The position numbers and the translations under genes were made by a program. A DNA stretch of 64,000 bases, taken from NCBI RefSeq assembly GCF_000001735.4, contig NC_003075.7, positions 1,001-65,000 of the forward strand, given 5' to 3'. Below are positions 48,784-52,449 of this stretch, one piece after another (within the stretch, counting starts at the first letter, position 1; every line of letters starts with the position of its first letter). Below the pieces are notes generated by a model. That model made no database searches. It saw nothing but the letters and a program-made list of their open reading frames with translations, and was not told where the DNA came from. The stretch is from Arabidopsis thaliana (taxonomy: Eukaryota > Streptophyta > Magnoliopsida > Brassicales > Brassicaceae).

Positions 48784-49241
48784 GTTTGGGAAACACTAGA
48801 CAGAGCGTACTTCCCGAGAACTCTACGAAGCTTAAATCAAGAAAATTGGGAAAATGGTATAGAAAATATATGATGTATTTAACATGTCTCTATGTAGAAT
48901 ATGAATCTATGGGAGAGAGAATGAAGTTTTCGAATGTCATGTGTTGGGTTGTGATACACTTGCTCTTTTGCCTACTCCCCTTGACTATGAGATGGTTCAG
49001 GAACATGCTTAAAGGGTAGTTTTGTGCCTCTGCCCTCTGTATAATAGAGTCAAGTCCCCTATGCAGGCTTTCGTCGGCTGCAATCAACCTATTCTAGTTC
49101 TACTTTGTAGTTTAGACATCCAATTTACAGTTTAAACATTATTAATGTTCGGCTTCTAAGTTCTCACAAGTAGAGAGAAAACAAGAGTCATCATTAAACA
49201 AGTAGTCACCCAAAATCACAGCCTAACTTATAGATTGCCAA
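48784..49241. other. Spacer before EDA34
   Basis: On the minus strand a short open stretch near 48960-49085 (IAADESLHRGLDSIIQRAE) looks more protein-like than chance, but I do not recognise it and it has no splice context. The stretch just below 49242 was the 3' untranslated region of EDA34. Confidence 0.35.
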
Positions 49242-49300
49242 TCAAGAATCTTTCAACATGCGACATCGCGACACTATCTTCCTGAACTCATCCAAGCTTA

Positions 49301-51320
49301 TGTAACGCCCGTGTCCCGAGTTAGGGAGTAAGCAAGATCTTACACACGCCGAATTCGAGGACGAATTCAGTTTAAGGGGGGTAGACTTGTAACGACCGCG
49401 TCCTGCGTTCATAAAGAGGCCAGGTTGTTTTAGGAGAAAACTAGACCATGGTCAAGAAACGGACTAAAATACTTAGTCAGAAGAACGAGAAAGTTCAAGC
49501 TGAACCAGCTAGGTGAGCTGGACAAGCTAGGATGAACTAGCTAGCTAAGTTAGGTGAGCTAAACCAGCTGGAAGACTAGCTAGCTCAGCTAGGTGAGCTG
49601 ACCGACAGCTCGACTGAGCTCGGTGAGCTGATCGTGTACTGACCCAGCTGGGTGGTCATTCTAAGTAAGATCTTGCTTACTCCATTCGTTAAACGACTCG
49701 TCATCGGTTGTGAATTGATGAACCAATCCCTATCGTTACTTAACCATACAACCAACCAACCCCACTGGTCTAAGTACAACGATAGAGATTGGGGATCGTA
49801 CGATTCCCTTGGTTCACGATGACCGAATCAAACTCTTGGCTTATTGGTCCATCCGTCCTCTAAACGTACTCCCCTTCGGTTCCATGGTGGACGATTGAGC
49901 CCTTGGCTTATCGAACCATCCATGTTTCCGATCCGGTCATTTACTACGACCGCCCACGGTTTACTAACCGTTTATCCGTCCGGTCTATGGTGGTCGATAA
50001 AGCTTTCGGCTTATTGATCCATCCATACGATCCGAACTATATCCTTATCACACCCAAGGGTCCGTGGATTCATCCACTGGATCATCTTCGGCTAGCCCAT
50101 GAAATCCTTCTTCCGTCGGCCTTAGGTTTGCTCGTGGGTCCAATATCCGTTTTGTCCATCGGTTCTCACCGTGGACTTTCCCGTTGGTTATCCATCGAGT
50201 CACCCTTTGGTCTTACCGATCTTTGATCGGTTTCACCATGGCTGAGGAGATAGATACATGAAGGCGGCCGCGATGTTGATCCTATATGGTGAATCACGTT
50301 CCTTACCCATTCTTGGTGCTTTCTCCCTTTACCGGTAAGATTGCATCCATGGGCGACCCTTGGGTGTGTTCGGATGCACTTATCCTTGTGCTTCCTCGAA
50401 CACTTTTCTCGATCCATCCCATCCGACGATCGGTCTGTCCGACCCGTTCCGTCAGACGATCGGCCTGTCCCATCCGACCCGTCCGACGATCGGTCTGTCC
50501 GATCCGTCTGGCCGATCCGATCTGTCTGACGATCGGTCTGGCCGATCCGATCCAACGATCGGTCTACCAGATCCGATTCGTCTCTAAGACGAACGGTCTA
50601 CCCTCTCCATCCTCTACACTCCATCGAACCGTTGGACCGGGAGGTAGTTAGCGCATCAGTTCGGTCGAGTTATACTCGCCGAGCCGCACCCCCTTTCCGA
50701 CCAACAACTCTAGGATGTGTTGGGACTCCTTTAAGAATGTTTTATGGTGTTTGGATGTTGTGAGATGATGAGAGATTATTGTGAGATTGTGAGATTATTC
50801 CAAATGCCTTGGGCGTCCTCCCTTATATAGGGGGCGAATGGATGCTTCCCGAAGCATCACATCCGTTCCTTGCACTCCTCCGAAAGGTCACATCCGTTCT
50901 TTGCATCCTTTCGAAAGGTCACATCCGTTCTTTGCATCTATTGGGCGATGCAACCGTTCGTTGGTACCCACTCGACCTTACACCTTTTGGTCGAGACACC
51001 TCTTCACCCGTGAGCTACCACAGTCCCCCAGCTCGAGTATCAGCTGACCGGACCACCCAACTGGGTCAGTACACGATCAGCTCACCGAGCTCAGTCGAGC
51101 TGTCGGTCAGCTCACCTAGCTGAGCTAGCTAGTCTTCCAGCTGGTTTAGCTCACCTAGCTTAGCTAGCTAGTTCATCTTAGCTTGTCCAGCTTACCTATC
51201 TGGTTCAGCTTGAACATTCTCGTTCTTCTGACTAAGTATTTTAGTCCGTTTCCTGACCATGGTCTAGTTTTCTCCTAAAACAACCTGGCCTCTTTATGAA
51301 CGTGGGACGCGGTCGTTACA
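49301..51320 (-). mobile_element. LTR-type retroelement insertion, 2,020 bp, with 5-bp target duplication
   Basis: The insertion starts TGTAACG and ends CGTTACA, and GCTTA stands directly outside both ends (49296-49300 and 51321-51325). This is a perfect 5-bp target duplication with TG..CA ends, the signature of LTR element integration. A CTATATAAGG word on the minus strand (50821-50830) is placed as the LTR promoter, so the element most likely reads on the minus strand. Inside, 270-bp arms at 49388-49657 and 51051-51320 are inverted copies of each other, rich in AGCT words. A polypurine tract and a second LTR start (AAGGGGGGTAG, then TGTAACGACCGC) lie at 49373-49399. No gag or pol frame is present. 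It is a solo-LTR-like, rearranged copy, probably Ty3/gypsy. Confidence 0.85.
50420..50580. repeat. GATCGGTCTG-type minisatellite inside the LTR insertion
   Basis: The word GACGATCGGTCTGTCCGATC and variants occur about six times between 50425 and 50580. Nearby, CACATCCGTTCTTTGCATC occurs three times at about 50860, 50889 and 50920. Both are internal repeats of the LTR. Confidence 0.85.
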
Positions 51321-52449
51321 GCTTAGCTGCCCAAAATTAAAGATGTTTAGCAATAATGTTTCTCTAATAAACGTGAATACCTTCAACTTAGTACCCACCT
51401 TTCCGTCCTTGTCCATGTCAAAGGAACGAATCATGTCTTGTAATTCCTCTTCTGTCCATGTGAAGTCATGCACCGTTGCCATTTTCGCCACATCTCTCCG
51501 AGTAATGAACCCTTTTCCACCTTCTGACAAAAATCGCAGAGACTCAATGGAGTTAAAAACCATTCAAACACAAAAGATAGAAATTGCACAATCGATATAT
51601 TACCATCAAACTGACAGAAGTACATGACCAATTCATCTTGTGTCATCTGCATCTTGCTCATCAATTCCTACGAATGAGACAAGACAAATGCACATCAAGG
51701 ACATCCTCCTAGACTGTTAAGTAACAGTAATACACTAATACTTGATGTAAAAAAAAAACCCTGTCTTTTCTTCTTCATAGTTGCAGCCTCTTTATCGCTT
51801 CTCGTATTTTTCGTACGAGAGCCTCCTGCAACAGAGCCCTGTAGAGAAAGCGCTATTGCCTGCAAGCACTAAAACCAGTACCTTGTTCATGTCTATGTCA
51901 ATTCTGAAGCTATCGAATTTGCAGCATTACAATGTGAATACCTTGTCTAAGTCATCATCATCCTCACCAAGGAAAACTGATGTATTCAAAATCTTCCTAG
52001 ATGAGACTCTTCTCTTGGATGCAGAGGACTGGTTCTTAAATACAAGTCACAAGAAACCAGAGTAAAGATCAAATGGCACATTAACATTAAACACAATTAC
52101 AAATTGCCTTCAAGCCAGAGAGTAACCATCATTCACTGCTTCATTCATCGGATACAAGTTGACACAAGCAAAATTGTTACCTTTCTTTTACGAGTTGAAT
52201 TACACAGAAACTCCTCGTCTTCGTCCTCATCACCATCACCATCGGCGATTACGGGTGTATAATCATCGTCTTCTTCACCGGAATTCCGAGTGCATCCAAT
52301 CTCGCTTTGTTCTCAGCGATCCTTGACAACCTCTGCTTCTCATATTCCGAGATTTTCCCCTTTATCGGCTCCGATTCGTTGCCGGAACTCGAGCTCGAAC
52401 TCTCTCGTTCACTTCCTGAGCTCTCTCCCTCCGATTCTCCCCTCGCCAT

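Follow-up and report, generated by a model that had tools for sequence, protein, structure and literature searches.

A rearranged LTR insertion in the last exon of an Arabidopsis EF-hand gene whose intronless copy on chromosome 1 keeps an open reading frame

Introduction

The decay of an intron-bearing parent gene after retroposition is a known kind of event. In decayed-parent retrogenes and in the L1-like retrocopies of Arabidopsis described in passages of PMC4838847, as at the locus reported here, an intronless copy with a poly(A) tract and a target-site duplication has an intron-bearing parent elsewhere in the genome; the target start found here is A-rich, whereas TTAAAA is described there. 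As in decayed-parent retrogenes, the copy is open here and the parent is broken. Unlike them, the parent is named from a mutant phenotype, and it carries a retrotransposon in its last exon.

That retrotransposon invites comparison with Arabidopsis elements whose LTRs are about 2 kb long. Like these, it has TG..CA ends, a 5-bp duplication and related LTRs at dozens of places in the genome; in the elements fetched a purine tract precedes the 3' LTR, and in two that were viewed TGGTATCAGAGC follows the 5' LTR. Unlike these, the insert has two inverted LTR-start ends, and both the normal LTR end and almost all of the internal region are missing from it. From the tract and primer-site sequences we take the family to be of the Ty3/gypsy type. 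Mu killer of maize is an inverted-repeat source of small RNAs that silences a transposon family in trans. The present locus resembles Mu killer and other endogenous inverted repeats in having a transposon-derived inverted repeat downstream of a plant gene promoter; the repeat described here is seen at the level of DNA sequence.

Here we describe the locus in a window of 64,000 nucleotides from Arabidopsis thaliana (NC_003075.7, positions 1,001 to 65,000), in which all coordinates are given unless another contig is named.

Results

The exon map of the parental gene

The minus-strand EF-hand gene is presumably EDA34 (AT4G00140), a gene named for an embryo-sac mutant phenotype. Seven neighbouring frames were run against Pfam and six gave domains (bHLH, GeBP-like, GRAS, PMEI, epimerase and chalcone synthase), which fit the start of chromosome 4 and so make these names compatible with the position. 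The string AT4G00140 was found nowhere in the main texts of the searched literature (supplementary lists of retrogenes, outside that scope, may name the pair), and the search for EDA34 returned only papers unrelated by title. Alignment with an intronless copy on chromosome 1, described below, together with Pfam matches and reading of the sequence, gave the following map.

52181..52449, minus strand: exon 1, from the ATG at 52449, of the gene taken to be EDA34/AT4G00140 (retrocopy alignment, frame reading)
51942..52034, minus strand: exon 2 (retrocopy alignment)
51761..51859, minus strand: exon 3, with a UIM-like motif in frame that scores below the Pfam cut-off (Pfam, retrocopy alignment)
51604..51667, minus strand: exon 4, in which the first EF-hand begins (Pfam, retrocopy alignment)
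51399..51523, minus strand: exon 5, running through DMDKDGK of the second EF-hand loop (Pfam, retrocopy alignment)
51321..51326, minus strand: first six bases of exon 6, CTAAGC, adjoining the 3' splice site and containing the target-site duplication copy at 51321-51325 (sequence reading)
49296..49300, plus strand: second target-site duplication copy, GCTTA (sequence reading)
49242..49295, minus strand: displaced remaining coding sequence of exon 6, LDEFRKIVSRCRMLKDS followed by TGA (sequence reading, retrocopy)
49174..49241, minus strand: ancestral 3' UTR, its end set by the poly(A) junction of the retrocopy (retrocopy alignment)

On the minus strand the intron before exon 6 is 72 nt long, follows ..GGAAAG and ends in the acceptor TTGGGCAG directly before CTAAGC.

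An insertion cuts the second EF-hand loop

A sequence-only reading of the window had reported a TG..CA insertion flanked by GCTTA in the last exon of this gene. Copies of GCTTA do lie at 49296-49300 and 51321-51325, around a segment of 2,020 bp (49301-51320) that begins TGTAACGCCC and ends GGTCGTTACA, and the insertion point is six bases into exon 6 as counted from the 3' splice site. The 5-bp duplication and the TG..CA ends are those of an LTR-retrotransposon insertion. As GCTTA is common in the window (96 matches, against 112 expected by chance), the repeat alone is weak evidence, and a chance repeat was considered as an explanation; it was dropped because in the chromosome 1 relative CTAAGC runs straight into TTGGATGAG. 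The flanks therefore once formed one exon, and the possibility that they do so in no relative, which had been named beforehand as fatal to the reading, is excluded by that intronless, uninterrupted copy.

Across the junction on the minus strand, CTAAGC is followed by TGTAACGACC.. and the frame closes with LSCNDRVPRS* (frame end GKLSCNDRVPRS), in agreement with the protein end read earlier. When the insert and one GCTTA are removed, the flanks join as FDMDKDGKLSLDEFRKIVSRCRMLKDS, in which the last base of TGA is 49242, and encode LSLDEFRKIVSRCRMLKDS (in a longer reading, GKLSLDEFRKIVSRCRMLKDS, ending at 49242), so that the in-frame EF-hand loop and stop that had been claimed are seen directly in the joined flanks. 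The canonical EF-hand loop follows D-x-D-x-D-G-...-E over 12 residues; this pattern is present in the joined flanks and in the chromosome 1 copy (DMDKDGKLSLDE) and absent with the insert. The Pfam EF-hand_1 match falls from 41.3 bits in the joined sequence (profile positions 1-28 of 29) to 27.4 bits with the insert (1-19 of 29), which still just passes the cut-off of 25.4 bits. The loop Glu and the C-terminal exit helix are lost with the insert, as the sequence-only reading had stated. EF-hand_7 scores 38.3 bits with the insert against a cut-off of 30. Compared with solved structures, the joined EF-hand peptide matched calmodulins and nothing more specific.

The insert is a rearranged LTR derivative

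Comparison of the insert with itself and with elements of its family resolved it into the following parts.

49301..51320, minus strand: LTR-retrotransposon-derived insertion of 2,020 bp, its main LTR part oriented like the gene (sequence comparison)
49676..51320, minus strand: LTR nt 1 to about nt 1645 (comparison with family elements)
49658..49675, no strand assigned: junction filler of 18 bp (comparison with the 87-bp unit)
49388..49657, plus strand: inverted second copy of LTR nt 1-270, with 9 differences from the arm at 51051-51320 (arm comparison)
49301..49387, plus strand: 87-bp pre-LTR unit, an internal-region end with the purine stretch AAGGGGGG, which begins with a second LTR-start-like TGTAACGCCC (family elements)

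Read along the minus strand, the order is LTR 1 to about 1645, the 18-bp junction, LTR 270 to 1 inverted, and the inverted 87-bp unit. Within the filler and its neighbouring bases, 19 nt repeat part of the unit at 49301-49387 exactly and in inverted orientation. Both ends of the insert are of the LTR-start type, the left end being the duplicate start, and the normal LTR end, TCTCACA, is at neither end.

Searching the insert against its own genome (seven contigs; 40 of 72 candidates scored) gave at least 98 matching pieces, the insert itself and its own arms included, many of them 85-95% identical over insert positions 376-2020, which places it in a dispersed LTR family. The two elements measured (L037 and L038) have LTRs of 2,021-2,022 bp that start TGTAACGAC and end TCTCACA, with the 5' LTR followed by AGTTGGTATCAGAGC. 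In the five elements viewed, AAGGGGGGTAGACT stands before the 3' LTR or the LTR examined. Ahead of it comes an 87-bp unit in which the purine tract recurs together with an LTR-start-like sequence that is TGTAACGCCC or closely similar to it. All five (L035-L039) have this second purine tract and second LTR-start-like sequence within about 190 bp before the LTR start, and the repeated unit might possibly permit alternative plus-strand starts. In one of them, L035 (C5:10107300-10116000), LTR and internal parts of the same family are arranged in tandem and recur every 3,062 bp; the long repeats are 99.8% identical, pointing to recent unequal exchange.

The term LTR element, used in the sequence-only reading, was right about the origin of the insert and wrong if taken to mean a solo LTR or a complete element: either of these would have an entire LTR that runs in one direction from its proper start to its proper end, and no such LTR is found. 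Sequence comparison shows an LTR derivative that is rearranged and in part palindromic. We regard it as very improbable that the insert is an ordinary solo LTR, or stems from two nested insertions in place of one rearranged insertion, even though a solo LTR would give the TG..CA ends and 5-bp duplication seen here and the family LTR is nearly as long as the 2,020 bp of the insert. Only LTR nt 1 to about 1645 is accounted for in the main part, the remainder being an inverted LTR start and an 87-bp internal piece; a single target duplication encloses the entire insert; and among the matches listed, with 40 of 72 candidates scored, no other one extends over the full length of the query. The ordinary solo LTR was rejected on the missing LTR end and on the presence of the LTR start twice in inverted orientation. 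One rearranged insertion could have arisen by template switching in the course of reverse transcription, the additional purine tract serving as a second plus-strand start, and the clean 5-bp duplication suggests that integration then proceeded normally.

Transcripts of the parent would run into the LTR, which is oriented like the gene. On its gene-sense strand the insert contains none of three polyadenylation hexamers sought, a result that lends no support to transcript ends within the LTR.

An intronless copy on chromosome 1

A genome search with the joined peptide returned, as its best match, a single open frame at C1:27611934-27612179 that covers all 82 residues at 95% identity and ranks above the parent's own exons; with an N-terminal peptide the same frame came second, after the parent. 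The copy has an uninterrupted frame of 254 aa (nt 1519-2283 of the fetched locus, L034), with all 254 codons open. Each of the six parental exons has its match in the copy, and the five introns are all precisely absent, with exon-wise identities of 94-100% except for an exon-3 piece at 75%, in which a 24-nt gap is counted. Copy and parent share the 3' UTR as far as base 49174 of the window; in the copy a poly(A) run follows, and a 14-bp target duplication, ATATTGAAAAGAAA, lies at both ends of the copy (L034 1462 and 3481). Including both duplications and a later LINE insertion, it extends over C1:27611361-27613393. On this sequence evidence, the copy is a retrocopy of the parental mRNA, and it contains the uninterrupted last exon; the template transcript therefore had no insert, and the copy may be read as its fossil cDNA.

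Within the 3' UTR of the retrocopy lies a LINE fragment in minus orientation (L034 2328-3425), with an A-rich end and coding sequence that, judged by eye, is RNase-H-like. It is flanked on both sides by GGGTGACTACTTGTTT, a 16-bp target duplication.

The locus is presumably AT1G73440, with which the copy agrees in length and motif. The UIM match found here scores 15.4 bits, below the Pfam cut-off of 21. PMC9400066 gives AT1G73440 as a calmodulin-like protein of 254 aa with a UIM, and elsewhere the gene appears among the interactors of CaM8 and CaM9. Its expression is reported as analysed by real-time PCR in leaves (PMC4632659), a PCR that may not tell two such similar copies apart.

Further lesions in the parent

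Alignment with the retrocopy shows 67 bases missing from parental exon 1; the difference has CGG at either end, and its site in the parent is the CGG at 52288-52286. With this deletion the ATG-led frame stops within exon 1, ending ALGIPVKKTMIIHP* after 66 codons at a TAA at 52251-52249. That the parent lost these bases, and the copy did not gain them, is argued by the open frame of the copy. Two distant relatives, one on C5 and one on C3, lend weak support, in that their similarity continues through the segment missing in the parent (E 0.05 and 0.35, both weak). These two loci (L042, C5:17122189; L044, C3:6637573), otherwise different genes that we take to be B3-domain genes, have the motif YE..RL.R..ENK.R...L...K....L in common with the N-terminus of the EF-hand family, at the same weak E-values.

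At the end of exon 3 the parent reads AGACAG and then GGTTTT. Measured by the junction in the retrocopy, this is one G too many ahead of the intron-3 donor GT, and the donor is apparently shifted by one base, as judged from one base and one relative. Other length differences leave the frame intact: the parent is without 24 nt of exon 1, and the copy is without 24 nt of exon 3 and 12 nt where exon 1 ends. Measured against this one relative, the parental frame carries the disabling lesions of a pseudogene (67-bp deletion, donor shift, LTR insertion), and the LTR insertion is apparently one of three. It is presumably the parent, and not the copy, that changed at each of them. The earlier interpretation is in this respect partly supported, as the insertion is a real break in the gene but not the sole one.

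Exons 4 and 5 and the EF-hand region before the insert stay open, and a 71-aa EF-hand peptide can be read from an ATG in exon 4 to LSCNDRVPRS, so a short peptide from the parent is possible. It could be argued on these grounds, and from the EF-hand_1 and EF-hand_7 matches that pass their cut-offs with the insert in place, that the insertion is a tolerated C-terminal truncation which leaves a working shortened EF-hand protein, the exon-1 anomaly being avoided by a small intron or a downstream start. We consider this quite unlikely, given that the parental ATG-led frame terminates in exon 1, that the intron-3 donor is shifted, and that the second EF-hand is left without its 12th-position Glu and exit helix. 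In the reading we prefer, a multiply lesioned parent, full-length protein would no longer be made at this locus.

Divergence and timing

The two arms of the insert differ at 9 of 270 positions, seven of these being transitions. At eight of the nine, the base in one arm is found in none of 20 other copies (two in one arm, six in the other), giving 8 arm-private differences in 540 arm bases. Parent and retrocopy differ by 6 synonymous and 12 nonsynonymous changes (135.5 synonymous sites; dS 0.046, dN 0.023) over 224 of 254 codons, 30 being left out for gaps. At a mutation rate of 7e-9 per site per year, on which both ages depend, the insertion is about 2.1 My old (0.9-4.2) and the retrocopy about 3.2 My (1.2-6.9), with date ranges that overlap widely; methylated cytosines would make the insertion age too old. 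Independently of the dates, the uninterrupted exon of the retrocopy supports retroposition before insertion: as read from the sequence, the insert entered exon 6 of the parent after retroposition, or at least was absent from the copied allele.

The dN/dS ratio of 0.50 is not significantly below 1 (12 of 18 differences nonsynonymous; P = 0.14 for 12 or fewer, by sites alone), and it therefore does not demonstrate constraint on the retrocopy. This ratio, and the LINE fragment in its 3' UTR, speak for the alternative that the chromosome 1 copy is a processed pseudogene that happens still to be open, with neither copy functional. This we hold to be doubtful, though it is the alternative to which we give most weight: 254 of 254 codons are open, the gaps of 24 and 12 nt relative to the parent preserve the frame, and an expression analysis of AT1G73440 is reported (PMC4632659).

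Discussion

We consider it highly probable that the locus is an intron-bearing, multiply lesioned parent whose intronless retrocopy on C1 keeps a 254-aa open frame. In the proposed course of events, a spliced, polyadenylated parental transcript would have been copied into chromosome 1, probably by LINE-type target-primed reverse transcription; the LTR composite would then have hit exon 6 of the parent, which would also have taken the frame-shifting 67-bp deletion in exon 1 and the one-base shift at the intron-3 donor. Decay of the parent with survival of the retrocopied frame is our best reading of the pair, and the retrocopy would presumably now carry the function of the gene, perhaps with the embryo-sac role.

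A further role for the parent can be imagined from the palindromic part of the insert. In the predicted fold of the gene-sense strand, calculated with no shuffle control, pairing between the two arms takes in 263 of the 270 bases of one of them, and among the matches listed at least 38 other places repeat most of the arm sequence. The inverted LTR starts might be transcribed from the old gene promoter as a hairpin, and the dead gene might serve as a source of small RNAs that silence the LTR family in trans; we put this forward as a long shot.

If the Col-0 parent is multiply broken and an unlinked retrocopy holds the open frame, Col-0 knock-outs, expression profiles and orthologue tables for EDA34 may point to the wrong locus, and it becomes crucial in which genetic background the mutant line was made. 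The functional question would move from whether the last loop is cut to whether the retrocopy has taken over. With a fossil cDNA, a retrotransposon in the parent and a LINE in the copy, the parent-copy pair would form a compact record of gene relocation.
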